A DNA stretch of 20,326 bases from a virus, in IMG/VR virus record IMGVR_UViG_3300025849_000283, positions 1 to 20,326 of that record. One strand, 5' to 3'. Positions 5,700 to 20,326 of the stretch are shown in pieces. Each line of letters starts with the position of its first letter. Positions within the stretch are counted from its first letter, which is position 1. The notes below the pieces were generated by a model. The model was not told where the DNA came from. It did no database searches and was given only the letters and a program-made list of their open reading frames with translations. Both the position numbers and the translations under genes were made by a program.

Positions 5700-6075
5700 T
5701 TATTTTTGGTCCTATTTTTCCCGTCAAAAACGGGTTGTAATGCGCCTTGTTTAAATCATCAAAATCGAGATCAAACTCTGGCGCGTTTTTAAAAAACAAC
5801 GTGCAGCGATTAACAACAGCCGCCCTTGAGCGACCCAGTTTTTTGGCGATTACCGACGGTGGTAAAATGTCTCGATTTTTAGCCAGGTAATTATGTTCAG
5901 TTTTCGTCCACCTTTTCCTGGACCCGCTTTTTTGAATACCTAACCTGGCCGCCCGGTCTTTTATTGCGCCAGAAGATCGTTCCATTTGATTGGCCAATAT
6001 TTCGTTGGTATAGCGGACATAGTTAAATCGCAAAAATTGATCTTCTTTATCGGTCCATCGTTTCACAGCCATCAT
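5689..6075 (-). CDS. Two-repeat Myb/SANT-like DNA-binding protein, 128 aa
   Basis: Two similar helical repeats: RWTDKEDQFLRFNYVRY...SSGAIKDRAARLGI (about 6-47) and RWTKTEHNYLAKNRDILPP...SRAAVVNRCTLF (about 55-95), followed by a tail with acidic and basic stretches. Trp-Thr-x-x-E/D openings and the AARLGI recognition-helix ending are typical of phage Myb-like and sigma-like HTH proteins. The ATG overlaps the stop of the nuclease gene (ATGA); a second ATG three bases on is equally usable. Likely a regulator or DNA-organising protein of the left operon. Confidence 0.75.
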   Translation of the reverse strand: MMAVKRWTDKEDQFLRFNYVRYTNEILANQMERSSGAIKDRAARLGIQKSGSRKRWTKTEHNYLAKNRDILPPSVIAKKLGRSRAAVVNRCTLFFKNAPEFDLDFDDLNKAHYNPFLTGKIGPKINVK

Positions 6076-7121
6076 TCGTTGCCATCCACAAAGACGCCAC
6101 CAAAAGCAGCACGTAAGCTATCAGCGCCAGGGTCGCCCAAGAGGGCAGCCGGGGCAGCTTGCAGTTCGTTGCTTGTGTATGATTTATCACCCTTAACGCC
6201 GTTGTAAAATTCCACACCGTCGATGGTTCGGTATGAGATACGGTTATTAACCGGGTCCATATCCACCATTTCATGGGGCACAAGGTTTGGATTAAATAAG
6301 TGCTTTTCACACCCCAGACGTTGTTCATCGGTTGATATTTCTTTATCGTGAAAAGTGCATTTCCAGCCACCGTTTTTAATGTCGGCAAATGAATGCACGC
6401 ACGTTCTGCAATTAACCTGGGGCAATTCGTCGCGGTGGCAAACGTCCTGGTGGTCGCAGAATTTACACTTGAAAAAGTCGGCCCTAGTGCTTATGCCAGG
6501 CGGTGGAATATCGGTTGCTATGATGGTCCTGGCCTTTTCGACCAGCGCCAAAGCATCCTCCTGGTTGTACTTAAAACGCTCTGTATACAGCTCGTCGGTG
6601 TCTTTGCTTACTGCCATATACATTGCGCGTTCAAGCCCCAGGCCGTGCATATAAACCTGCATTTGGGCATAATGTTCGGGTTTAGATTCGCGCACGCCGT
6701 TCTTTTTTAGCAGCGCAAACGATTTATGATTGTGGGTTTTAAATTCCAGTAAATGGGCTTTGTTAGGGGATTCTGGCAGCCCTTTGGCCACCCCGTCACA
6801 AGAGCCGGCAAAGTGGCCGCCGTGAAACGTGCAGCCAAATTGTTTTTGGTTTTTATCAACAGCCCAAACTTGGACATTAATTGATGATAGATCACGAATA
6901 AAATAATCTTCCTCGTCGTGGCCGCGCTTAAATAGGCGCAGCACGCGCCCAGGGAAATTGGGCACGGTGGCCCAACGGAAGCCATACCACAGCGCCCGGT
7001 TGCACTCGCGGCCGATCATACTTGCGCCAAGATGCGCGCGGCTTGATTCAACATGATTTGTTTCAAACTTGCGATAAATCGCCTCTATAGTGCTGTTATA
7101 AGGTGGTGGTATGGCAGCCAT
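6072..7121 (-). CDS. PD-(D/E)XK nuclease, Cas4/RecB-like with Fe-S cysteines
   Basis: Probable DNA exonuclease of the recombination module. In 349 aa: early SMIGREC (Cys40), RGHDEEDYF (about 66-73), Asp109 in GSCDGV, Glu126-Phe-Lys128 in LLEFKT, and QMQVY (153-157). Together these give the D-ExK-QxxxY active site. Cys40 with Cys219, Cys222 and Cys228 (KCKFCDHQDVC) has the spacing of the Cas4/AddB iron-sulphur cluster. A further cysteine set (NCRTC...WKC...GC, about 238-271) suggests an extra zinc site. GGGGA precedes the start, which lies five bases after the ssDNA-binding protein stop. Partners are probably the Sak4 ATPase and SSB upstream. Confidence 0.88.
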   Translation of the reverse strand: MAAIPPPYNSTIEAIYRKFETNHVESSRAHLGASMIGRECNRALWYGFRWATVPNFPGRVLRLFKRGHDEEDYFIRDLSSINVQVWAVDKNQKQFGCTFHGGHFAGSCDGVAKGLPESPNKAHLLEFKTHNHKSFALLKKNGVRESKPEHYAQMQVYMHGLGLERAMYMAVSKDTDELYTERFKYNQEDALALVEKARTIIATDIPPPGISTRADFFKCKFCDHQDVCHRDELPQVNCRTCVHSFADIKNGGWKCTFHDKEISTDEQRLGCEKHLFNPNLVPHEMVDMDPVNNRISYRTIDGVEFYNGVKGDKSYTSNELQAAPAALLGDPGADSLRAAFGGVFVDGNE

Positions 7122-7125
7122 TAGA

Positions 7126-7605
7126 TTATCCCCAAGGTGGAGCAGCTACGGCCGCTGTTGGTGGTGGAGTGGGTCGGCCAACCATTGGTGCAGCCGTGGG
7201 CTGGTTAGCGGCAGGGGCAGTAAATGACACATCATTTGATGGTTCATATCCGTCGCGCTGGCTAATCTTTAAACCCATGACAAACGGTTTGCCGTGCAAT
7301 TCCTGGGTGTCGCCCATTTGCGGTGGTAAACCTAAATTACTCATTAATACCGCCAAATCTTTGCGGCCAATGTTTTCAGCGACCGGGTTGGGGTTGACGA
7401 TATTAAGGCGGTGCCAGATTTTGCGATTAACGTGCGCGCCATCCAATACCTGGCAAACTAATTCCAAATATTGGCCGGTGCCCGCTTTGGTATCTTTTAC
7501 GGCCGATTCAATCACCATGGCGTTATATTTACCCTGGGGTAATGGCTCAAAGCCGCCGCGATCGTCAGACGTGTCGATTCCTGTTGCATCAAAAGAAAAT
7601 TGCAT
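7126..7605 (-). CDS. ssDNA-binding protein, DUF669 type
   Basis: Binds single-stranded DNA in phage replication and recombination. The N-terminal OB-like core (about 1-115) has FEPLPQGKYNAMVIES, QYLELVCQVLDG and NRKIWHRLNIVN, which are hallmarks of DUF669 proteins. A low-complexity Ala/Pro/Thr tail follows and ends in PPWG, a short C-terminal tip like the protein-docking tips of SSBs. AAAGG lies 7-8 nt upstream of ATG. It stands between the Sak4-like ATPase and the Cas4-like nuclease, the normal place for this family. Confidence 0.85.
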   Translation of the reverse strand: MQFSFDATGIDTSDDRGGFEPLPQGKYNAMVIESAVKDTKAGTGQYLELVCQVLDGAHVNRKIWHRLNIVNPNPVAENIGRKDLAVLMSNLGLPPQMGDTQELHGKPFVMGLKISQRDGYEPSNDVSFTAPAANQPTAAPMVGRPTPPPTAAVAAPPWG

Positions 7606-7619
7606 TATTAATACCTTTT

Positions 7620-8297
7620 TTAGTTACGGATTTTATTGGCAATGTTTGCCAAGGTGGGGTATTCGTAGGGGTCCAATTTGCCGGAGCGGTCTTTGGCCTC
7701 ATACTGAATGTCGCGTGAAGTTTGCAGGGACCGCTCAATAACACCATCGGCGTTTTTCGTTAAGCGGAGACAAAAAACTTCGTCGAAAAAATAGGCCAAA
7801 GATTGCGCCAGGCGTGCGCCAGGCATAGATGGCATAAAGAGTAGGGTATTGGCATGATCGTCGTTTACCCGGTCCATCTTGGCGGTCATAACCACATTGG
7901 TGGGCAGATCACGGAATGATCTAATCAGCGCCGTCATTTGGTCTATTAGGGCACCATAAGCCTGGCGTGGGTCTTTGGTTTTTGCCTTTTCAGCGTTTAG
8001 CACGACTTCGGCAATTTCGCTGATCGAATCGAGGCAAACCCATTGATAGGGGTGTTCGCCTTTGAGGTGGTTAAATATTTCATACACATCATCAATTGAC
8101 GTGACCACACAAATATCGACCAAAGCGTTGTCTTGGATAGATAACAAGCCACCTTCGGCGCTTATGATTAAGGTTTTTTCATCGTCCGGGGCACTGGTGC
8201 AAAATACAGTTTTGCCAGCGCCAGCGGGTCCGTAGATCAAAACCTTAATGCCGTTTTGCAATGCGGCGTCTTTCGCGCTTATGAGTTGAATAGCCAT
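7620..8297 (-). CDS. Sak4-type RecA-like ATPase, ssDNA annealing
   Basis: Phage single-strand annealing or recombination ATPase of the AAA_24/Sak4 family. In 225 aa: Walker A GPAGAGKT at 23-30, ISAEGG (about 45-50), Walker B WVCLDS ending at Asp90, and a later FMPSMPGARLAQSL segment typical of the family. The start overlaps the preceding stop (TAATG), with GGAGGAGG upstream for re-initiation. Sak4 proteins work with an SSB, and the DUF669 gene follows 14 nt later. Confidence 0.9.
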   Translation of the reverse strand: MAIQLISAKDAALQNGIKVLIYGPAGAGKTVFCTSAPDDEKTLIISAEGGLLSIQDNALVDICVVTSIDDVYEIFNHLKGEHPYQWVCLDSISEIAEVVLNAEKAKTKDPRQAYGALIDQMTALIRSFRDLPTNVVMTAKMDRVNDDHANTLLFMPSMPGARLAQSLAYFFDEVFCLRLTKNADGVIERSLQTSRDIQYEAKDRSGKLDPYEYPTLANIANKIRN

Positions 8298-10368: not shown

Positions 10369-12410
10369 TGCGTTACACACTGTTTACCAGTGTTAAAAAC
10401 AGCATAGGCAAAAGCGCATCCAGGCCGTGGCCAGATTTTGTAAAAGACCATTTGAGCGATCACCAGGTAATAAACAATAAAGACGCCGGGCTAATGTATA
10501 GCGGCGCTGTTTACGAAATGGACCCGCCAAAGCGCGGTGATGCAAACGTTGATTCAATGTCGATGATGGTTGTCGATTATGACAATAGCCAGGGCATTGG
10601 CCTTGATTCTAAATGTTCGGGGTTGCCCACATTACCCCAGGACGTTGAGCCAGAATTAGCCGGTAATGCCTACGCGTTTCATTCGACCCACAGCCATGGC
10701 AAAGATTGGCCCAGGTGGCGCCTGGTGATTCCGTTTGATCGTTTGGTTAGCCGGACCGAATGGCCTATTGTTTTCAATTATGTGTTTGAGCGCATTTTAG
10801 GTTCGGATTTAAACATCGACACGACTTGCAAAGATTTAAGCCGCGCTTATTGGCAACCCGCTTGCACAAAAGACACCATCGACGTGGCGTTTACCGGGTA
10901 TCAGGAGGGCGAATTATTAAACATTGACGAAATTATGGACCAAATGCAGACCACCATATCGCCCGAATTTATGGCAGCTATGGCCGATAACGTGGTTAAC
11001 CTGGTGACTAAACAAGCGCCAAAACCATTGGACGAATCACGCGTGCCAGAAGGTAGAAACGATTATTTAAAGCAGATCGTGGCGGCCATGCTAGAAAGGG
11101 CCGAGCCACTAGAAGAAATCATTTGCCAGGTCTACCAAGCCGACGTTGATAAACATGGTGCGAATGCCTTGTTTACCGACGCAGCCGAGGGCATGAAAGG
11201 CTCCCCAGGTATTAATTGCATGGGATTCGTTACCAATGTCATAAGGTCGATTGATTCAATGCGAACCAGGGCGGCGATTGAACCACAATTGCCGACCATG
11301 CGCCCGGTGAATGTGGTCCTGGATAACAAAGACTTATTAAACATCGAGCCACCGGCCAAATTTGAGATCGTTCAAGCGTCTAGCCTTTATGGGCATGAGC
11401 CAAAACCCATGGAATGGATCATGGAGGATTGGATGCCCAGGAGCCAAACCACACTTATTTATGGTGATGGTGGCGTGGGTAAAACCCAGTTAATACAGCA
11501 ATTAATGTCGTGCGTTGCCACCGGGCGGCCATTTATGGGCGTCGAATGTGCCGAGGGTCCAGCAATGGGTTTCTTTTGTGAGGACGATATTAACCAGCTA
11601 CACCGGCGCCAGGCGTCCATCAATACATTGTATGGGATGGATTTTCGGGGTTTAGATAATTTGTATTTAAGCGCACGACCAGCCCAGGACAATTTATTGA
11701 TGGAATTTGACGGCAAAAATGTCAATGGCGTTAAAACCCAAATATGGCACCAATTGCGCGAAAAAGTGGGCGATATAAAACCCGCCATGCTAACGATTGA
11801 CACAGCAGCCGATACATTTGGCGGTAATGAGATCGACCGGCAGCAAGTGCGTCGATATATCCAGGGTTGTTTAACGTCGTTGGCATTGGAGTTTGAAATG
11901 GCTTTGGCTCTGTTATGCCACCCGTCGGCGTCAGGTATGGCCAATGGAACGGGCGCTGGTGGTTCGACCGCCTGGAGCAATACGGGGCGTTGTAGGTGGT
12001 GGGTTTTCCCTAACCCGGAAAAGGGTTGTATCACCATGAAGATAATGAAAAACAATTACGGCAAAAAAGATTTAGAGATAGATTTTAAGCATAACGGTGA
12101 TGGTTTTGTGCCTCACCATCAAGCCGACGTCGATAACTTTGTGGACCAGCTAACCTATGACCTGGATAAAAAATGGATTATTGAGCAAATCGCGTATTGC
12201 AAGGATAGAAACATAAATCTATCAATGCAAAACCGAGCCAATTATTACCCCAAGCAATTGCTAAAACTAGCCAAGCAGGACAAATACAATATTAGCTTTT
12301 CCACCATCGAATCCATTGTTTATGGCATGGATAAAAAAGGCCAGATTGAGCATTTAGAGCGAGGCAACCGCCATTCCAATGGTGCTTCTTTTGTCTATAA
12401 AGGCGTCTAA
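10365..12410 (+). CDS. Primase-helicase, AEP-like N-terminus and RepA-like ATPase
   Basis: Replication initiator enzyme combining priming and unwinding. In 681 aa, the N-terminal half (about 1-190) has archaeo-eukaryotic primase features: VVDYDN (Asp71, Asp73), HSTHSH (106-111), WRLVIPFD and CKDLSRAYWQP. The C-terminal half is a RepA/AAA_25 hexameric helicase: GDGGVGKT at 367-374, FFCEDD, Walker B MLTIDT (Asp479), and the sensor segment LLCHPSASG...GSTAWSNTGRC. The terminal 100 residues may bind DNA. ATG overlaps the Cro-like stop; a second ATG follows at 10368. The candidate iteron origin begins 25 nt after its stop. CCWGG occurs 17 times in this gene by hand count. Confidence 0.9.
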   Translation: MMRYTLFTSVKNSIGKSASRPWPDFVKDHLSDHQVINNKDAGLMYSGAVYEMDPPKRGDANVDSMSMMVVDYDNSQGIGLDSKCSGLPTLPQDVEPELAGNAYAFHSTHSHGKDWPRWRLVIPFDRLVSRTEWPIVFNYVFERILGSDLNIDTTCKDLSRAYWQPACTKDTIDVAFTGYQEGELLNIDEIMDQMQTTISPEFMAAMADNVVNLVTKQAPKPLDESRVPEGRNDYLKQIVAAMLERAEPLEEIICQVYQADVDKHGANALFTDAAEGMKGSPGINCMGFVTNVIRSIDSMRTRAAIEPQLPTMRPVNVVLDNKDLLNIEPPAKFEIVQASSLYGHEPKPMEWIMEDWMPRSQTTLIYGDGGVGKTQLIQQLMSCVATGRPFMGVECAEGPAMGFFCEDDINQLHRRQASINTLYGMDFRGLDNLYLSARPAQDNLLMEFDGKNVNGVKTQIWHQLREKVGDIKPAMLTIDTAADTFGGNEIDRQQVRRYIQGCLTSLALEFEMALALLCHPSASGMANGTGAGGSTAWSNTGRCRWWVFPNPEKGCITMKIMKNNYGKKDLEIDFKHNGDGFVPHHQADVDNFVDQLTYDLDKKWIIEQIAYCKDRNINLSMQNRANYYPKQLLKLAKQDKYNISFSTIESIVYGMDKKGQIEHLERGNRHSNGASFVYKGV

Positions 12411-12435
12411 AAAATGGATATTTTCACCAAAAAAG

Positions 12436-12577
12436 TGCGGCAGTTATGCGGCGTAGAATTGATTTCTTGCGGCATAGTCTTTTTTGGGTTTGCGGCATAG
12501 TGCGGCGTAGAAATGGAAACGCCCATATAGCTGGCGATAAATGCGGCAGTTTTGCGGCATATCTTGTGCGGCATAAC
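12436..12577 (+). repeat. Iteron array: eight TGCGGC repeats, candidate origin
   Basis: TGCGGC begins at 12436, 12447, 12468, 12491, 12501, 12542, 12553 and 12567, all in one orientation. Extensions fall in three classes (AGTT, GTAGAA, ATA). Adjacent pairs are spaced 10-11 bp (12436/12447, 12491/12501, 12542/12553), one helical turn. An AT-only block follows at once. Directly repeated sites beside a replication initiator gene plus an AT-rich unwinding element is the layout of iteron origins. The frame open through this region has no ribosome site and repetitive Arg/Tyr content, so I treat it as noncoding. Confidence 0.65.
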
Positions 12578-12622
12578 TATATATATAAATATATATATGG
12601 GGCTTTGGCCCCCAATATATTA
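12578..12622 (+). other. AT-rich unwinding element and GC hairpin
   Basis: 12578-12598 is made only of A and T (alternating ATATAT). It is followed by GGGGC-TTTG-GCCCC (12599-12612), whose stem can be lengthened by ATATAT/ATATAT pairing with a two-base bulge. The AT block fits the site of strand opening; the hairpin could halt a fork or serve as a single-strand priming structure. There is no T run, so it is not a standard terminator. Confidence 0.5.
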
Positions 12623-12672
12623 ATACATATAAAAAAAGCAGCGAGAAACGAAAATTTTAAAAGGGTTAAATT

Positions 12673-13095
12673 TTGATTAACAGCCAAAGAAAAGGCGCGA
12701 GCGCAGAAAGGGAAGTGGCGGGATTAATTGCACTAAACCTTGGCGTCAAATTAAAACGCAATTTAGAGCAAACCAGAGGCGGTGGCCATGACCTGGTATT
12801 AGATGGTGATGAACAAATCTGGCCCATTGCTCTGGAGATTAAGAATTATTCCGAGGCACGCCCTGGGCAGATTAGCGGATGGTGGCAGCAAGCCGTCAGC
12901 CAGGCAGCAATTGCGAAACAGATACCTGTTCTTTGGTACAAAGATCGACGCCGCTGGCGGGTCATATTACCAGGGCATTTGTTTATGGATGGCGTCACCT
13001 GGGGAACAATTGAAGCCTACACCGTGACCGTATCGCCAGAAATGTTTTATTCAGTCTATCGGGAAAAAATAATGGAGGGTCCGAGTTTTTGCTAA
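12673..13095 (+). CDS. PD-(D/E)XK endonuclease, Hjc-like resolvase
   Basis: Probable structure-specific endonuclease, a candidate Holliday junction resolvase. TTG start with AAGGG 8 nt upstream. Motifs in 140 aa: SQRKGASAEREVAGL (Glu12), RGGGHDLVL (Asp40), ALEIKN (Glu55 and Lys57), then WWQQAVSQAA. These follow the E-D-ExK order of archaeal Hjc-type and phage resolvases. It lies just downstream of the origin region and would resolve recombination or replication intermediates before packaging. The stop overlaps the next start. Confidence 0.82.
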   Translation: MINSQRKGASAEREVAGLIALNLGVKLKRNLEQTRGGGHDLVLDGDEQIWPIALEIKNYSEARPGQISGWWQQAVSQAAIAKQIPVLWYKDRRRWRVILPGHLFMDGVTWGTIEAYTVTVSPEMFYSVYREKIMEGPSFC

Positions 13096-13298
13096 AGCCC
13101 AAAAAATATGAGTTAAACGGGGAGCAGCTAACAATTAAACAAATTGCCGAGCGCAGCGATTTGCCCGCCAGCAGAATACGCCGACGCATAAGCAGGGGAT
13201 GGACGCCAAGTGAAGCGGTAGAAGTTAAAAAAATGTCGAGCAGCCAAGCGGGGCGAATCGGCAAGCGTCGATCACCCTGGATAAAAGATTGGAAATGA
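13089..13298 (+). CDS. Small HTH protein, 69 aa
   Basis: TTG start with GGAGGG 9 nt upstream, overlapping the endonuclease stop. The pattern is YELNGEQLTIKQIAERSDL, then PASRIRRRISRGWTPSEAVEV, a short HTH resembling modules seen in phage proteins and beside homing endonucleases. The tail is basic. DNA binding is likely; the target is unknown. Confidence 0.72.
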   Translation: MLKPKKYELNGEQLTIKQIAERSDLPASRIRRRISRGWTPSEAVEVKKMSSSQAGRIGKRRSPWIKDWK

Positions 13299-13308
13299 GG
13301 GATAGATA

Positions 13309-13935
13309 ATGGATTTAAATATAACGACCAACATTAATTCGATACAGCGAGGGTTAAGCAAAACCGCGAAACGCCAGGTGCCGTTTGCAATTGCTTCCAC
13401 ATTAACCAAATTGGCATTTGAAGCCATGAAGGAAGAAAAGCAGGGAGCGCCCAAATATTTGGACCGGCCGACCCCATTTACTGTAAAAGGTTTTCGATAT
13501 AAGAAAGCAAACAAACGAAACCTAATGTCTGAGGTTTATATAGATGGTGCAGCGGCCAACCGGTCCTATATGAAATATTCAATTGAGGGTGGCGTATCAA
13601 GGCCGAAAAAAAATGCCCTGGTCCACCCTGCAAAGAACAGCAAATTAAACAAATACGGCAACCTTCCCAGGAACTACGTTAAGAAAGCCCTGGCAAACAA
13701 AGCCAAGTTTTTCAGTGGCGTGCCCAAGGGAATGCAAGGTAATGAAAATTCGGGTATCTGGCAGCGTTATGGGCCAAGAAATAACCAGCGCATTCGGATG
13801 GTTGCCCAATGGCGTAAAACCCGTGGATACCAGGCTAAATTCCCATTCTACGAGATCACAGGCGACGTGGTATTTGGTCGAGCAAACGCGATCTTTAATA
13901 AGCAGTTAGCGTATGCCATGGCGACGGCACGGTGA
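13309..13935 (+). CDS. gpZ-like minor tail or tail-completion protein
   Basis: ATG with GAGGGA about 7 nt upstream. The 208 residues are basic. The N-terminal QVPFAIASTLTKLAFEAM, then DRPTPFTVKGF, the IEGG segment, NKYGNLPR, GIWQRYG and a final FNKQLAYAMATAR resemble phage proteins distantly related to lambda gpZ (tail completion). The first three and last segments are the clearest. The assignment is from memory of the family pattern and is moderate. Its place among replication genes rather than in the tail operon is odd. The stop overlaps the SleB-like start (GTGA). Confidence 0.55.
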   Translation: MDLNITTNINSIQRGLSKTAKRQVPFAIASTLTKLAFEAMKEEKQGAPKYLDRPTPFTVKGFRYKKANKRNLMSEVYIDGAAANRSYMKYSIEGGVSRPKKNALVHPAKNSKLNKYGNLPRNYVKKALANKAKFFSGVPKGMQGNENSGIWQRYGPRNNQRIRMVAQWRKTRGYQAKFPFYEITGDVVFGRANAIFNKQLAYAMATAR

Positions 13936-14360
13936 TTGGTGAAGCGGTGTTATGCCTGGCGCTTAATTTGTATTTTGAGGCACGCGACCAAAGCCAAGTT
14001 GGCCAGTATATGGTTGGCCTAAGTGTAATGAATAGAGTTCGCCATGAGCATTATCCAGGGACCGTTTGCGAGGTGGTTAAGTCTGCCAAATATAGGAAGG
14101 ATAATAAAACCATACCGATACGCAATGCGTGCGCTTATTCCTGGTTCTGCAATGGTTTGAGCGATCAGCCCCAAAACCTGGAGGCATTTAGCCGGGCAAA
14201 GATCATGGCCCACCGTATTTATACAGGTCAGGTTAATGATTTTTCCGAGGGCGCAACCCATTACCATGCCACCTGGATAGAGCCACCCTATTGGGTTGAG
14301 CAAATGCAAACGATCAGTCGCATTGATGAACATATATTTTATAAGGAGTTAGACAAATGA
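13932..14360 (+). CDS. SleB-type cell wall hydrolase
   Basis: Peptidoglycan hydrolase of the SleB/CwlJ family. GTG start coupled to the preceding stop; no ribosome site. In 142 aa: CLALNLYFEARDQSQVGQ (Glu16, the likely catalytic acid), MNRVRHEHYPGTVCEVV, the CAYSWFCNGL segment, and GATHYHA; all are standard for the family. No signal peptide or membrane segment. As the phage already has a lysozyme, this enzyme may act during DNA entry, be packaged with virions, or give a second lytic activity. Confidence 0.88.
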   Translation: MIGEAVLCLALNLYFEARDQSQVGQYMVGLSVMNRVRHEHYPGTVCEVVKSAKYRKDNKTIPIRNACAYSWFCNGLSDQPQNLEAFSRAKIMAHRIYTGQVNDFSEGATHYHATWIEPPYWVEQMQTISRIDEHIFYKELDK

Positions 14361-14536
14361 CAAAAGCCTTGGACGTTATGTTGCGGGACCGGCCTAAGAT
14401 TATTGTAGACCGGGAGTATTTTTATATCATCCAAAAAGATAGTGAATTGTTTGAGATATTGAAAGCCCATGGTGTAGAAGATTGGGACGGGTATAAGGCA
14501 GCCGAGCAAGAGTACAAAGACGAGGTGGAAGAATGA
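14357..14536 (+). CDS. Small acidic phage protein, 59 aa
   Basis: ATG overlaps the SleB stop (ATGA) with AAGGAG 7 nt upstream, and its own stop overlaps the next ATG (ATGA). The product starts MTKALDVMLRDRPKIIVDRE, continues YFYIIQKDSELFEILKAHG and ends in an acidic helix (AAEQEYKDEVEE). No known domain. The strong ribosome site and double coupling make it a real gene; function unknown. Confidence 0.75.
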   Translation: MTKALDVMLRDRPKIIVDREYFYIIQKDSELFEILKAHGVEDWDGYKAAEQEYKDEVEE

Positions 14537-15486
14537 AAAATGGAAAGTTATCAGAAAAACAAGGAGAGAGCGTAAAAAATCACATAGTCTCTTTTTCTGG
14601 TGGCCGAACATCGGCTTATATGGTCTGGCTTTTCCAGCAAAAAAGTTTGCGAGAAAATATAAACGTTGAATTTGTCTACTGCGATACGGGAGCAGAACAT
14701 CCAGCTACATATAAATTTATAAAGGATGTGGTGAAACATTACGATATAAATTTAACGTGCTTGCGCTGTTTAATAAATCCAGAAAAAGGCATAGGCACTA
14801 CATACAAAGTAGTCTCATTAGAAGAATGCCAGCCAGATTTAAAGCCGTTTAAAGATATGGTTTTAAAATATGGCGTTCCAAGTGTTACTGGTCCGATGTG
14901 TACTAGGGAAATGAAGTCAACACCAAGCGACAAATATTGCAATGAAAAATATGGGCGTGGTAATTATGTCAAATGGCTTGGCATTAGAGCCGACGAGCCA
15001 AACCGAATCAAAGTAGTTGAAGATCAATTGGATTTGTTTGGAGGGGCTAAAAAAATATCTAAAGAAAAATTACCTTTGCGATACTTAGGGCAAATAAGCA
15101 ACATGACCAAGCAAGACATTTTAGATTGGTGGGAAGATCAACCTTTTAATTTAAATCTAACGGAAGAGTTAGGTAACTGCGTTTTCTGCGTAAAAAAAGG
15201 AACCAATAAAATAGCATTAGCGGCAAAAAAAGAACCTGAAATGGCGAAAAAATTTATAACTATGGTCCAAGACCCAAGAATCCCTATACCTGCTACAAAA
15301 GCGGCCGCTGGTCACTTAATAGACACTATGTATAGAGGTAGATTGTCACTTGGAGATGTAATTGAGTCATACAAAGATGTAAGCATAAAAGACTTGTCTG
15401 ATTCGATCACAAGAGGCCGACGCTATAGTGCTGATTCATGCAGTGAATCATGCGAATCAATGACCCTAGATTTGTTTGGGCAATAA
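14533..15486 (+). CDS. PAPS-reductase-family protein (adenine nucleotide alpha hydrolase fold)
   Basis: The family binds ATP, APS or PAPS; phage members are of uncertain role (sulphur metabolism, or nucleic-acid thiolation as in DndC). In 317 aa: PP-loop SGGRTS at 22-27, VYCDTGAEHPATY, CTRE (Cys123), LGIRADEPNR (149-158), Cys216-x-x-Cys219 and a closing Cys pair. AGGTGG lies upstream of ATG. The gene is AT-richer than its neighbours, prefers TTA, AGA and AAA codons, and contains no CCWGG, which is common on either side. That points to recent acquisition. The exact substrate is not predictable. Confidence 0.85.
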   Translation: MKNGKLSEKQGESVKNHIVSFSGGRTSAYMVWLFQQKSLRENINVEFVYCDTGAEHPATYKFIKDVVKHYDINLTCLRCLINPEKGIGTTYKVVSLEECQPDLKPFKDMVLKYGVPSVTGPMCTREMKSTPSDKYCNEKYGRGNYVKWLGIRADEPNRIKVVEDQLDLFGGAKKISKEKLPLRYLGQISNMTKQDILDWWEDQPFNLNLTEELGNCVFCVKKGTNKIALAAKKEPEMAKKFITMVQDPRIPIPATKAAAGHLIDTMYRGRLSLGDVIESYKDVSIKDLSDSITRGRRYSADSCSESCESMTLDLFGQ

Positions 15487-16550: not shown

Positions 16551-17066
16551 ATGATGGAGTTTAACAAAAACCAAATAGCCGAGGCTTTTGGGATAAATTT
16601 AACCACCGTGGACAAATGGCGGCGAAGTGGGTGCCCGGCAGAAAAAAAGGGTCCAAACGTGATGTTTTCAGTTCGCCAGGTTAGCGATTGGTTAAGGTCC
16701 CGAGATATGGAAACCAGCGGAACCTTGGACCTGGGGCAAGAGCGCGCCAAGTTAACAAAACTCCAGGCACAAAAAGCCACCCTGGAACTAGAGATTTCAC
16801 GCGGTAATTTGATTCCAATGGATTTGGTGGTGGAAACCTGGCAGGGACACATCGGGAACTGTCGGGCAAAGTTGCTGGCAATGCCAGCCAAGGCCGCCGC
16901 GCAGACGATTGGGATGGATGAATACCTGGAGACAGAACAATTTTTAACAGGATTAATCAACGAAGCACTGGACGAACTAGACAATGACGGATTACCTAAA
17001 CAACACGTTAAAAGCCTTGAAGCTATCGCAGAAGATATGGAAGTCGCCGCCAACGCTAACGGTTAG
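16551..17066 (+). CDS. terS: Terminase small subunit, Nu1-like
   Basis: Recognises phage DNA and recruits the large subunit. In 171 aa: winged-HTH N-terminus (NQIAEAFGINLTTVDKWRRS, then GCP, and FSVRQVSDWL), a helical linker (LTKLQAQKATLELEISRGNL), and a C-terminal part for large-subunit contact. This is the lambda Nu1 order and length (181 aa). AAAGGG precedes ATG by 8 nt; a second ATG follows at 16554. Its last 83 nt overlap the large-subunit gene in another frame. Confidence 0.88.
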   Translation: MMEFNKNQIAEAFGINLTTVDKWRRSGCPAEKKGPNVMFSVRQVSDWLRSRDMETSGTLDLGQERAKLTKLQAQKATLELEISRGNLIPMDLVVETWQGHIGNCRAKLLAMPAKAAAQTIGMDEYLETEQFLTGLINEALDELDNDGLPKQHVKSLEAIAEDMEVAANANG

Positions 17067-18825
17067 CGAGTGGGCCGACGAAAACCGCAGGCTATCGCCA
17101 GAGTCGAGCTCGGAGCCAGGGCTGTGGCGAACCAGCCGGGCAGAGTATCAGCGCGAAATCATGGACACCGTTGCAGATGCCAGGATAGAAACGATTGTGA
17201 TTATGTCCAGCGCCCAAGTGGGTAAAACTGAGATCATCAACAATATAGTGGGCTACTTTATAGACCAGGACCCAAGCCCAATGATGGTGTTACAGCCGAC
17301 CGTCGAAATGGCAAAGACCTGGAGCCATGACCGGCTAGCGCCAATGGTGAGAGATACACCGGCGCTGAAGTCACTAATTGCAGATAACAAGAGCCGGGCG
17401 TCAAGTAACACGTTATTCCACAAATCATTCCCTGGTGGGCACATTACAATGACCGGTGCCAATTCACCCACCGGCCTGGCGTCGCGTCCCATACGCATTG
17501 TCTGTTGTGACGAGGTGAGCCGATACCCGCAAAGTGCAGGAGCCGAGGGCGACCCGGTAAACCTAATTAGAAAACGAACAACGACATTCCACAATCGAAA
17601 AATCGTATTAACCAGCACGCCCACCTTAAAAGGCGCGTGCCGAATCGAACAAGAATTTAGCATATCGGACCGGCGTTATTACGAGGTGCCGTGCCCACAT
17701 TGCCAGCATGAGCAAAGGCTTAAATGGGCAAACGTGCAATGGCCAGAAGGGAAACCCCAAGAAGCCGTGATGGTGTGTACCGAATGCGGCGGCGTGATAG
17801 AAGATAAACACAAACCCAAAATGATTAAAAACGGCAAGTGGGTGGCCGAGTTACCAGGAGGAAAAATTGCCGGGTTTCATTTGAATGAATTATATTCGCC
17901 CTGGCGAACCTTTGCCGACGTGGCCGAAGATTTCGCAGAAGCCAAAAAAAACCCGGAGACATTAAAGACCTGGGTCAATACTTCCCTGGGAGAAACCTGG
18001 GAGGAAGCCGGCGAAAGTTTGAGCGAGCATTTATTGTCGGAGCGCAAAGAAAATTACGCCATCGACGCGATACCGCCGGAAGTGTTATTGCTCACAAGCG
18101 GGTCAGATATTCAAAAGGACCGCATCGAAACTACCATAGTCGGTTGGGGTATGGATTCTGAGTGCTGGATATTGGACCATGTTGTTTTGTACGGCGACCC
18201 GACACAGCAAAAAGTGTGGCATGAGTTAGAAGAGGTTTTGACAAAAACTTATGATGGCCACCGCATTGCAGGAGCCGCGATTGATTCGGGTTATTTGACC
18301 GAGTATGTTTACCAGTTCACAAAGCCCAGGAGCAGCCGCCGGGTGTTTGCCATTAAAGGCCAGGCCGGAATGGGCAAGCCATTAACCACCAAACCAAAGC
18401 CAGTGGGACGCACCAGGACGCCCATGTATACGGTCGGAGTGGATACCGCCAAGCGGACCATTTATGCCAGATTAAGGTTGACCAGTGGCGAGGGATATAT
18501 TCACTTTGGTGTGGACTTTGACGATGAATATTTCCAACAGCTAACCGCTGAAAAAATGGTGACTAAATACCGGCGCGGTTTTCCCGTAATGGAGTTTGTC
18601 AAAACAAGAGATAGAAACGAGGCGCTTGATTGCCTGGCGTATGCCTATGCAGCCCTGGATAATTTAAACGTGAAGTTGGCCGCCCTGGCTGCAAAGCGCA
18701 AGGCTAAACAAAACGCGGTGGCAGTAGAGCCGGAGCAAACTAGCCCACTAGCTACACCACCACCGCCGGTGAAAAGAACAAAGAAAACGAGGTCGAGAAA
18801 AGGAGGGTTTGCTACCAGGTATTAA
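16984..18825 (+). CDS. terL: Terminase large subunit, lambda GpA family
   Basis: ATP-driven packaging motor and nuclease. In 613 aa: TLTVSEWADENRRLSPESSS near 24-43 and REIMD, the family opening; Walker A SSAQVGKTE with Lys81; Walker B IVCCDEVSRYP with Asp176-Glu177; a zinc ribbon CPHC...CTEC; then the nuclease half with SGSDIQKDRIE and AIDSGYLTEYVY, and DCLAYAYAAL near the end. The C-terminal tail is Lys/Arg rich. ATG at 16984 keeps the conserved N-terminus and is the only suitable start. The stop is shared in part with a convergent gene (TTAA, 18822-18825). GpA-type terminases imply cos packaging. Confidence 0.94.
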   Translation: MTDYLNNTLKALKLSQKIWKSPPTLTVSEWADENRRLSPESSSEPGLWRTSRAEYQREIMDTVADARIETIVIMSSAQVGKTEIINNIVGYFIDQDPSPMMVLQPTVEMAKTWSHDRLAPMVRDTPALKSLIADNKSRASSNTLFHKSFPGGHITMTGANSPTGLASRPIRIVCCDEVSRYPQSAGAEGDPVNLIRKRTTTFHNRKIVLTSTPTLKGACRIEQEFSISDRRYYEVPCPHCQHEQRLKWANVQWPEGKPQEAVMVCTECGGVIEDKHKPKMIKNGKWVAELPGGKIAGFHLNELYSPWRTFADVAEDFAEAKKNPETLKTWVNTSLGETWEEAGESLSEHLLSERKENYAIDAIPPEVLLLTSGSDIQKDRIETTIVGWGMDSECWILDHVVLYGDPTQQKVWHELEEVLTKTYDGHRIAGAAIDSGYLTEYVYQFTKPRSSRRVFAIKGQAGMGKPLTTKPKPVGRTRTPMYTVGVDTAKRTIYARLRLTSGEGYIHFGVDFDDEYFQQLTAEKMVTKYRRGFPVMEFVKTRDRNEALDCLAYAYAALDNLNVKLAALAAKRKAKQNAVAVEPEQTSPLATPPPPVKRTKKTRSRKGGFATRY

Positions 18826-18992
18826 CTGGCAGCGTTTAAAGTATCGGATACCCAGGCGGCCAATGATTTCCCATTGGCGGCTTTTTCCCAGGCGGCTTTT
18901 TCTTTTGGCGTGCAACGGATTTGCAGCCGGACAGATTTGGTAATTTCTTTTGCGGCGTTTTTTTGGCCGGCCATGCCATGTGGTTTTTTCAT
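18822..18992 (-). CDS. Small ribbon-helix-helix-like protein, 56 aa
   Basis: ATG at 18992 with TTGGGGA 6-7 nt upstream, and a GGGGC-TACG-GCCCC hairpin just before that. The product starts MKKPHGMAGQKNAAK and contains EITKSVRLQIRCTPKEKAAW, then GKSLAAWVSDTL, the strand-helix-helix order of RHH/CopG proteins. It probably binds DNA as a dimer and could regulate the leftward cassette. The stop overlaps the terminase stop on the other strand. A longer frame in another phase over the same bases (18748-18996) lacks any domain pattern and is not used. Confidence 0.7.
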   Translation of the reverse strand: MKKPHGMAGQKNAAKEITKSVRLQIRCTPKEKAAWEKAANGKSLAAWVSDTLNAAS

Positions 18993-19003
18993 GCAATCCC
19001 CAA

Positions 19004-19017
19004 GGGGCCGTAGCCCC
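19004..19017 (-). promoter_or_regulatory. Intercistronic hairpin, UACG tetraloop
   Basis: Minus strand GGGGC-TACG-GCCCC, a 5-bp GC stem closing an exceptionally stable cUACGg loop. It sits between the stop of the 108-aa gene and the ribosome site of the 56-aa gene. Confidence 0.7.
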
Positions 19018-19023
19018 TATTAA

Positions 19024-19350
19024 TTAATCTTCTTTTTGTTCCATTTCATTCCATACTTTATTCATCAAACAAAGAAGGATTGTTGACAGTTCTTTTAACT
19101 CAACTAATGAGCATTTGCCAGGCACCGTATTACCTGGTGAGTATGTTTGGCCTTTAAGTGAATATTGATCTGGAACTATATCAACCGGCGTGATGGTGTC
19201 AACCTCACACGTTTTTGGCTCAATACAATTTAAAAATGCAATTAAGCCAGCTTTATCGGTTGGCACTTCAATTTGGTCAAATGACCCTAATGCTTTGGCA
19301 TCCGATTGGGTGCCGGTCCATTGGTTATTTTTGCTAACGTAAAGTCTCAT
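19024..19350 (-). CDS. Leftward cassette protein, 108 aa
   Basis: ATG at 19350 has AGGGGA 8 nt upstream; the frame continues upstream through a hairpin without a start signal. The product starts MRLYVSKNNQWTGTQSDAKA, then GSFDQIEVPTDKAGLIAFLN and a Glu-rich end (LVELKELSTILLCLMNKVW). Its opening recalls small phage proteins that begin with KLYVSKDG and carry a PTDKAGL segment. Function unknown; no membrane segment. Confidence 0.7.
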   Translation of the reverse strand: MRLYVSKNNQWTGTQSDAKALGSFDQIEVPTDKAGLIAFLNCIEPKTCEVDTITPVDIVPDQYSLKGQTYSPGNTVPGKCSLVELKELSTILLCLMNKVWNEMEQKED

Positions 19351-19363
19351 TTTATTTTCCCCT

Positions 19364-19377
19364 GGGGCCGTGGCCCC
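19364..19377 (-). promoter_or_regulatory. Intercistronic hairpin, CACG tetraloop
   Basis: Minus strand GGGGC-CACG-GCCCC, located between the 88-aa gene stop and the AGGGGA ribosome site of the 108-aa gene. CACG belongs to the YNMG loop group. Confidence 0.7.
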
Positions 19378-19385
19378 GTTATTAT

Positions 19386-19652
19386 TTAAGCGACCACAAA
19401 ACTTTTTAGATGATATTCTTTGCAATACGAATCTATCTTTTTGTTAAAAGTAAAATGACCTCCAATACCATCGCCCTGGTAATTACCGTTAACATAATTG
19501 ACCCCGTATAACTGAACCATTGCAGGTTTTCGGTTTGATTTTTTCTTAATTATTTCTATGTCGCCATTTTTAAATACAACTTCAATTCTGAAGCCGTTTT
19601 TTATTTCAATGGCTTTAACTTCAGCGATTGTATTTGCTATTTCAATATTCAT
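19386..19652 (-). CDS. Leftward cassette protein, 88 aa
   Basis: ATG at 19652 has TTTGGAGA 6-7 nt upstream. The product starts MNIEIANTIAEVKAIEIKNG and is probably beta-rich (FRIEVVFKNGDIEIIKKKS), followed by VQLYGVNYVNGNYQGDG, which might be part of a compact all-beta fold. AT-rich with only one CCWGG. Function unknown. Confidence 0.68.
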   Translation of the reverse strand: MNIEIANTIAEVKAIEIKNGFRIEVVFKNGDIEIIKKKSNRKPAMVQLYGVNYVNGNYQGDGIGGHFTFNKKIDSYCKEYHLKSFVVA

Positions 19653-19664
19653 TTAATTCTCCAA

Positions 19665-19678
19665 AGGGCCGAAGCCCC
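19665..19678 (-). promoter_or_regulatory. Intercistronic hairpin, UUCG tetraloop
   Basis: Minus strand GGGGC-TTCG-GCCCT, four GC pairs plus a G-U pair closing the classic cUUCGg loop, between the 95-aa gene stop and the GGAGA ribosome site of the 88-aa gene. Confidence 0.7.
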
Positions 19679-19687
19679 ATATTGTTG

Positions 19688-19975
19688 TTATTTAAACTTC
19701 TTGTAGGTGGATAGATCGCTAACCATTTTAGCTTCATCTTTTGTCATGTTTGTTACGGTACACCACTCGTAGGGCACGCAAATGCCATCAATCCATATTC
19801 CTAAACTAATACCTCCATATTTAGCTGGTCTTTGAACTAAACCAATTTCGCCATCTACTAATGGGCCTTTAAATGTTTCTGCTAAATATTCCCAAGTAGA
19901 AACATAGTCGTTGCTATACGCAAACACGTCTAATTGTGTTTGATTTGGGATTAATTTAATTGTTACTTGTGCCAT
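19688..19975 (-). CDS. First gene of the leftward cassette, 95 aa
   Basis: ATG at 19975 has GGAGC 7 nt upstream. The product starts MAQVTIKLIPNQTQLDVFAY, continues STWEYLAETFKGPLVDG, YGGISLGIWIDG and MTKDEAKMVSDLSTYKK. No signal peptide or known motif. It has no CCWGG. It is the promoter-proximal gene of the four-gene leftward unit; function unknown. Confidence 0.7.
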   Translation of the reverse strand: MAQVTIKLIPNQTQLDVFAYSNDYVSTWEYLAETFKGPLVDGEIGLVQRPAKYGGISLGIWIDGICVPYEWCTVTNMTKDEAKMVSDLSTYKKFK

Positions 19976-20020
19976 GTGATGCTCCGTTTGTTTATTTACT
20001 TAACTTTATCTAACAATCTA

Positions 20021-20048
20021 ATTGTACTGACAAATAGAATATATGCAA
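20021..20048 (-). promoter_or_regulatory. Promoter of the leftward cassette
   Basis: On the minus strand TTGCAT (20048-20043), a 16-nt spacer and TACAAT (20026-20021), giving a leader of about 40 nt before the 95-aa gene. This makes the cassette independently transcribed inside a rightward late region. Confidence 0.5.
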
Positions 20049-20153: not shown

Positions 20154-20326
20154 ATGGCCAATTTATTTGATACTGCAAATTACCCAGGACGTGAACCATT
20201 TTCACTCGTCATTGGCGACCGCTGGACCTGGAAAAAAGACGATTTTTCAGATTACCCATCATCGGCATATACCCTTAAATACTCGTTTCGATTAGATGGT
20301 GCCGGGGCAACCGAGATTCAGATTAC
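20154..20326 (+). CDS. Probable virion (head or connector) protein, N-terminus only
   Basis: Open to the end of the window. ATG at 20154 has AAAGG about 11 nt upstream; an in-frame ATG at 20118 lies within the hairpin and has no ribosome site. The product starts MANLFDTANYPGREPFSLVI, then GDRWTWKKDDF and YTLKYSFRLDGAG. Proteins with this opening occur near GpA-type terminases in phage late operons, but their role is not known to me. Position suggests a head-tail structural protein. Confidence 0.55.
   Translation, partial: MANLFDTANYPGREPFSLVIGDRWTWKKDDFSDYPSSAYTLKYSFRLDGAGATEIQI

Follow-up and report, generated by a model that had tools for sequence, protein, structure and literature searches.

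The virus record IMGVR_UViG_3300025849_000283 of IMG/VR, analysed here over positions 1 to 20,326 (20,326 nucleotides, in the following the window), carries an array of four small leftward genes, g1 to g4, between its large terminase gene and the next late gene, and each of the three junctions inside this array holds a short GC-rich hairpin (Table 1). All four genes of the quartet lie where the original prediction had placed them. It had read them as a modular accessory, moron-like unit, and the promoter-like sequence in front of the array, its low GC content (0.33-0.40 compared to 0.49-0.53 in the adjoining late genes) and the constant fold with variable loops agree with this. The array phenomenon is, however, larger than was described there. 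Comparison with other viral contigs, which are labelled by L-numbers, indicates that the hairpins are seams of gene exchange between phages, a role that had been missed, and that they are at the same time structures selected in the mRNA.

Table 1. Features of the array, of its insertion site and of other regions of the window
Feature	Position	Strand	Remark
Promoter-like sequence of the array	20048-20021	-	TTGCAT (20048-20043), 16 nt, TACAAT (20026-20021)
Leader AAGTTAAGTAAATAAACAAACGGAGCATCAC with ribosome site GGAG	20006-19976	-	common to arrays elsewhere in other phages' genomes
Cassette gene g1	19975-19688	-	95 aa, function not assigned
Hairpin 1, GGGGC-UUCG-GCCCU	19678-19665	-	g1/g2 junction
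Cassette gene g2	19652-19386	-	88 aa, function not assigned
Hairpin 2, GGGGC-CACG-GCCCC	19377-19364	-	g2/g3 junction
Cassette gene g3	19350-19024	-	108 aa, function not assigned
Hairpin 3, GGGGC-UACG-GCCCC	19017-19004	-	g3/g4 junction
Terminal gene g4	18992-18822	-	56 aa, probably RHH-like
Large terminase, left border of the insertion site	16984-18825	+	GpA ATPase and nuclease
Next late gene (MANLFDTANYP...), right border of the insertion site	20154-20326	+	cut by the window end
Recombination module	6072-8297	-	three adjoining genes
Cas4-type exonuclease	6072-7121	-	
DUF669 SSB-like protein	7126-7605	-	
Sak4-like annealing protein	7620-8297	-	
Phosphoadenosine phosphosulfate reductase-like gene	14533-15486		phrog_33262, E 2e-89

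The three junctions share one build. The stop codon is followed by 6-9 nt of AU-rich spacer, then by the 14-nt stem-loop, another 1-3 nt, a ribosome site (GGAG or GGGGA) and the ATG, and the gap from stop to ATG amounts to 31-35 nt. The order of stop, hairpin, ribosome site and ATG had been predicted and is confirmed at all three junctions, but the distance from stop to hairpin, given before as 12-20 nt, measures 6-9 nt. The motif GGGGC-NNNN-GCCCY occurs seven times in the window (both strands of palindromes counted), compared to 0.10 occurrences expected from dinucleotide shuffles of the window. Folding of the linker with hairpin 3 gave a z of -2.6 against shuffles, and an Rfam search of the window matched no family. 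A similar stem noted earlier at 12599, GGGGC-UUUG-GCCCC, is indeed present in an AT-rich gap (12411-12672), but its loop is not of the YNMG class, no ribosome site lies directly behind it and its architecture is another one.

The candidate promoter attributed to the array is conserved before different first genes in seven relatives (L007, L008, L009, L010, L013, L015, and L019), but was not scored by a simple sigma-70 scan. The leader behind it (AAGTTAAGTAA...GGAGCATCAC) is otherwise found in arrays at other genome positions, and a scan of viral contigs for the leader, run to completion, gave 24 stretches. Since a promoter of the terminase site is joined here to a leader of arrays from other positions, the array of the window appears chimeric. 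A second shared linker is present in L109, L163, L210, L222, L317, L325, L326 and others; in its promoter the -35 box is surrounded by two AACAnnnnTGTT-like dyads, and TATACT, 6 nt, the AAGTTAAGTAA leader and a ribosome site follow in this order. The linker is possibly under operator control by a phage repressor.

A homologue of g1 in L005 (78% identity) shares the leader, and its hairpin junction is orthologous; for g2 no homologue was found among the fetched contigs. The structure model of g3 is of low confidence; the g3 family occurs in seven contigs with nine different neighbours and has a hairpin at eight of its junctions. The prediction of an RHH-like regulator as the last gene is likely correct with regard to the protein type: the AlphaFold model of g4 consists of an extended stretch and two helices, at low confidence (pLDDT 65), and the best matches are mostly of RHH type (NikA, TacA, KacA, and an RHH ParB), but they are weak and every one of them stays below threshold. 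At a threshold of E 0.001, Pfam, NCBIfam and PADLOC gave no match for any of the 73 joint-flanked families, and the PHROGs matches of such families carry no functional name. From the setting of the cassette genes, roles in anti-defence or host take-over are plausible.

A terminase scan identified 15 close relatives at 82-98% identity, plus many distant ones. The array is present in 10 of the 15 and absent in 5, and the interval from the terminase to the next gene spans 55-100 bp in most relatives and 0.6-1.9 kb in array carriers. L006, with 97% terminase identity, lacks the array, and its empty site measures 101 bp. In all ten carriers the array runs leftward, and its last gene is the same 56-aa RHH-like one, always adjoining the terminase (in the window g4 overlaps the terminase 3' end by 4 nt), while the remaining genes differ, and the gene set at the site is another one in nearly every close relative. 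Array gene lengths (in aa) are, for example, 78-70-60-108-134-56 in L007, 78-~90-56 in L008, 78-101-56 in L013, and 79-56 in L015/L016; the L009 array consists of overlapping genes without hairpins. Some distant relatives carry unrelated, mostly rightward inserts at the same site. Judged by these comparisons, the site between the terminase and the next late gene is an insertion hotspot. Host assignment by terminase matches gave only distant relatives (at most 51% identity, mixed phyla), and no host was assigned.

The joint is not restricted to the terminase site. A search for the architecture of stop, hairpin and ribosome site clearly recovered similar junctions in relatives, in other phages and in many other viral contigs. 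In a free-loop hairpin scan of viral contigs, among the matches listed, loops in contigs of at most 50% GC are mostly UUCG, UACG, CACG, and GAAA, and most of these hairpins lie a few nt after a stop codon and before a small reading frame. Hairpin linkers across contigs are mostly 31-38 nt long, and a hairpin is present at 71 of the 87 junctions with a gap of 30-40 nt. In pattern-fetched contigs of at most 50% GC, 46 of 55 loops belong to the YNMG or GNRA classes compared to 9% by chance (p 1e-38), whereas the GC-rich contigs, which serve as an internal control, have mostly random loops (13/58 in these classes). An ascertainment-free set, composed of contigs retrieved not by the hairpin pattern but solely through gene homology, the leader or the ribosome-site block, holds 28 GGGGC-NNNN-GCCCC palindromes. 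Of these, 24 lie at same-strand gene junctions, and the loop of every one of the 24, read on the mRNA strand, is of the YNMG or GNRA class. The loop constraint is a strand-specific property of RNA, and the loop counts across contigs bear out the earlier view that the fold is kept while loops vary within stable classes. The strict linker pattern had no match in 85,000 bacterial and archaeal genomes, and BLAST of the linker against cultured phages gave partial matches only, mainly in Klebsiella, E. coli and T4-like phages.

Two variants of the joint were observed beside the common form. In L129 and L151 the junction loop is CGUG, the reverse complement of CACG, as though the hairpin were inverted. 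In the GC-rich contigs L208, L217, L242, L255, and L272 the ribosome-site block GGAGCATCACATGA is preceded by a perfect stem, TGCCGC-CACGC-GCGGCA, perhaps the analogous joint of another phage group.

Turnover at the junctions was analysed in 79 contigs, in which genes were called by our own script and grouped into families; for each gene present in two contigs at 70-97% identity, the neighbour was scored as same or different. Across hairpins the neighbour was retained in 0 of 18 and 2 of 23 pairs, compared to 54 of 74 and 27 of 73 across coupled (overlapping or tightly spaced) junctions. Pairs with only the upstream gene in common have a similarity of 0.95 at the end of that gene, of 0.82 in the spacer between stop and hairpin (background 0.49, p 3e-16) and of 0.60 in the ribosome-site part (background 0.56, p 0.26). 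Pairs sharing only the downstream gene exhibit the reverse pattern, with 0.57 in the 5' spacer and 0.75 in the ribosome-site part (p 4e-10), and loop identity is at background in both kinds of pairs. As far as sequence comparison goes, this shows that the spacer on the 5' side of the hairpin moves with the upstream gene and the ribosome site on its 3' side with the downstream one, and that genes are gained, lost, and re-ordered at the linkers, with the hairpin as the switch point. A gene at the terminase site of L009 has 99% DNA identity to a gene in another array in L119, and L007 and L325 have one gene in common at 90% DNA identity; different sites and phages have overlapping gene pools.

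At the RNA level, the stems are nearly always GGGGC, and variants are still paired (GAGGC/GCCTC, AAGCCC/GGGCTT, AAGGGC/GCCCTT). In L005, the junction orthologous to that of hairpin 1 has UAUGAGGC-UUCG-GCCUCAUA in place of GGGGC-UUCG-GCCCU, with compensated changes, and between L330 and L177, after the same gene, AAGCCC-UUCG-GGGCUU replaces AGGGGC-UUCG-GCCCCU. Since pairing is part of the junction filter, these variants are examples and not a test of covariation. When 91 junctions were folded, the median probability of the stem was close to 1 and the energy averaged -10 kcal/mol. The class of the loop (UNCG or GNRA) is kept but its sequence is not, which speaks against a sequence-specific RNA binder. 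Built-in RNA control, as originally predicted, agrees with the loop class held on the mRNA strand, but neither terminators nor context insulation nor a switch were supported.

We propose that the region is one case of a cassette array of uncultured, mostly low-GC and probably aquatic viruses. Small genes would be joined by a standard linker of ~31-38 nt, consisting of an AU-rich spacer, a GGGGC-YNMG-GCCCC hairpin and a ribosome site, and the first gene would be entered via a promoter-leader linker that is likewise standard. Exchange may proceed via phage-encoded single-strand annealing on the short shared linkers, by the Sak4-like protein, SSB and exonuclease of the recombination module, and would depend on homology rather than on a site-specific recombinase. 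AAA_24 (Sak4) matches are also present in the longer records behind L016 and L321, and in phage HK620 DUF669 is the SSB neighbour of Sak4 (PMC5928155). In two further papers, annealing proteins of the Sak4-like kind are described to promote recombination between short or divergent homologies (PMC5499656, PMC8093625), which would suit a shared linker of 35 nt. In the mRNA, the very stable hairpin could, with less certainty, function as generic punctuation that blocks coupling between neighbours and/or protects mRNA ends, whereby any gene would become pluggable with its own ribosome site. The pattern seen by comparison is well supported, while the recombination agent and the RNA function are what we infer. 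Taken as a whole, cassette array, linker seams, exchange by annealing and mRNA punctuation make up the explanation that we consider probable. That a wide pool of uncultured phages from aquatic habitats uses a plug-in gene format, with the same 14-nt RNA hairpin as recombination seam and translational punctuation, is a possible but more tentative extension.

Several observations weigh against this explanation. The strong sequence conservation of the stem could be due to homogenisation alone, and for two of the window's three linkers shuffled sequences fold at least as well. The contig pairs of the turnover test are not mutually independent, and their genes come from our own calling script. At long junctions (gap of at least 20 nt) without a recognised hairpin, the neighbour was retained in only 1 of 53 pairs when the upstream gene was held (4/7 on the other side, too few to judge). 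These junctions also turn over, and therefore the hairpin is not the sole seam; many of them are promoter-leader linkers and a few are hairpins outside the filter, so that the arrays possess two kinds of shared joint. Finally, a folding test across foreign upstream contexts revealed no drop in context variance with the hairpin, and therefore does not support insulation of the ribosome site by structure. The folding model gave a marginal gain in openness of the ribosome site (0.52 with and 0.50 without hairpin), and we do not claim insulation by folding as a function.

The turnover of long junctions without a hairpin would also be expected if the hairpins were a pure RNA element, acting as intercistronic mRNA stabilisers or processing barriers, a role that has been proposed for the cUUCGg hairpins of T4, with gene exchange being incidental. 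Any non-coupled boundary would tolerate exchange, and genes would merely happen to swap between non-overlapping neighbours. The maintenance of the loop class on the mRNA strand and the pairing of the stem variants are in agreement with such an element as well. However, many of the long junctions are themselves shared promoter-leader linkers, most junctions with a 30-40-nt gap do have the hairpin (71/87), and the stem is mostly GGGGC and not just any stable stem, although RNA stability alone does not require GGGGC. We consider a pure RNA element unlikely for these reasons.

GC-rich stems with terminator-typical loops, and a T-rich tail behind one of the three window stems on the + strand, could point to terminators or attenuators that set the ratio of gene expression, or to terminators that stop late transcription entering in antisense from the side of the terminase. 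No terminator U-run was found after the stems on the sense strand, which argues against an intrinsic terminator there, and no sense-strand terminator was scored in the window array. The sense-strand stem mostly abuts the ribosome site (the commonest next bases are ACGG, TTGG, AAGG, and AGGG), and the stable loop lies on the array sense strand even where arrays run with other genes. With the U-run missing and the ribosome site directly after the stem, the terminator reading was rejected on sequence grounds, and regulation of this kind is very improbable. Least probable of all is a single-stranded site of a site-specific cassette system (integron attC-like or a substrate of an HUH/REP-type transposase), which would fit cassettes of one or few genes bounded by hairpins and the switch at the hairpin, but not a stem of usually 5-6 bp without conserved bulges or a GTT/GTAG core, a UNCG/GNRA loop constraint that is a property of RNA, promoter-leader linkers that act as seams without hairpins, and a lambda-type phage integrase as the sole integrase found in the window.

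Small genes without assigned function abound in phages, and a recognisable joint provides a sequence handle for listing them across metagenomes as well as a testable mechanism for their shuffling. In what amounts to a mix-and-match gene kit the hairpins are the seams, and they represent a case of one short structure shaped by recombination and RNA selection together. If the plug-in format is true, small genes would be tradable between phages and still be expressed as independent units, a natural counterpart of the standardised parts of synthetic biology.

The joints share features with several known systems. Like the cUUCGg intercistronic hairpins of phage T4, reportedly described by Tuerk et al. 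in 1988, they are intergenic tetraloop hairpins of very high stability, situated on the mRNA strand; to our knowledge, the T4 hairpins have not been described as standard joints directly before each ribosome site in exchangeable arrays. A lambdoid moron is one gene with promoter and terminator. The window array resembles it by its promoter-like sequence, its low GC content, its orientation against late transcription and its absence in some relatives, but comprises several genes with internal standard joints. Elsewhere in the window lies a gene of a phosphoadenosine phosphosulfate reductase-like moron family (Table 1). In integrons, small gene cassettes without promoters form arrays with hairpin-forming sites between them, whereas the stems described here lack attC features, no integron integrase was found in the window and exchange appears to be homology-dependent.

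Promoter early stem-loops (PeSLs), in which promoter and terminator stem-loop form a single element, are short, repeated regulatory linkers between non-essential small genes of T4-like phages, and genes are shuffled at these linkers. PMC4503421 cites Arbiol et al. 2010 and Comeau et al. 2014 on PeSLs. Judging by sequence, the arrays described here likewise have repeated stem-loop linkers between small genes, and genes are exchanged with breakpoints in the linker element. In contrast to PeSLs, promoter-leader and stem-loop linkers are separate; the hairpin linker contains no sigma-70-like promoter, and at a length of mostly 31-38 nt has no room for one. Its stem-loop lacks a terminator U-run and is fused to the ribosome site inside one operon, its loop class is restricted, and the window phage is of a lambda-like temperate and not of a T4-like type. 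The cultured Roseobacter phage CRP-901 (OQ401623, L348) has a repeated linker at four small-gene junctions (record positions 12000-14330), two of them led by GGGGC/U-UUCG-GCCCC stems; stem-loops, hairpins or promoters are not mentioned in the CRP-901 paper. Unlike that of the window, this linker contains a promoter-like block and a TGTGACAnnTGTCA dyad, and so resembles a PeSL more closely. The joint is a variant of the stem-loop-mediated modular shuffling known from PeSLs, and what is new is that promoter and stem-loop are present as separate linkers.

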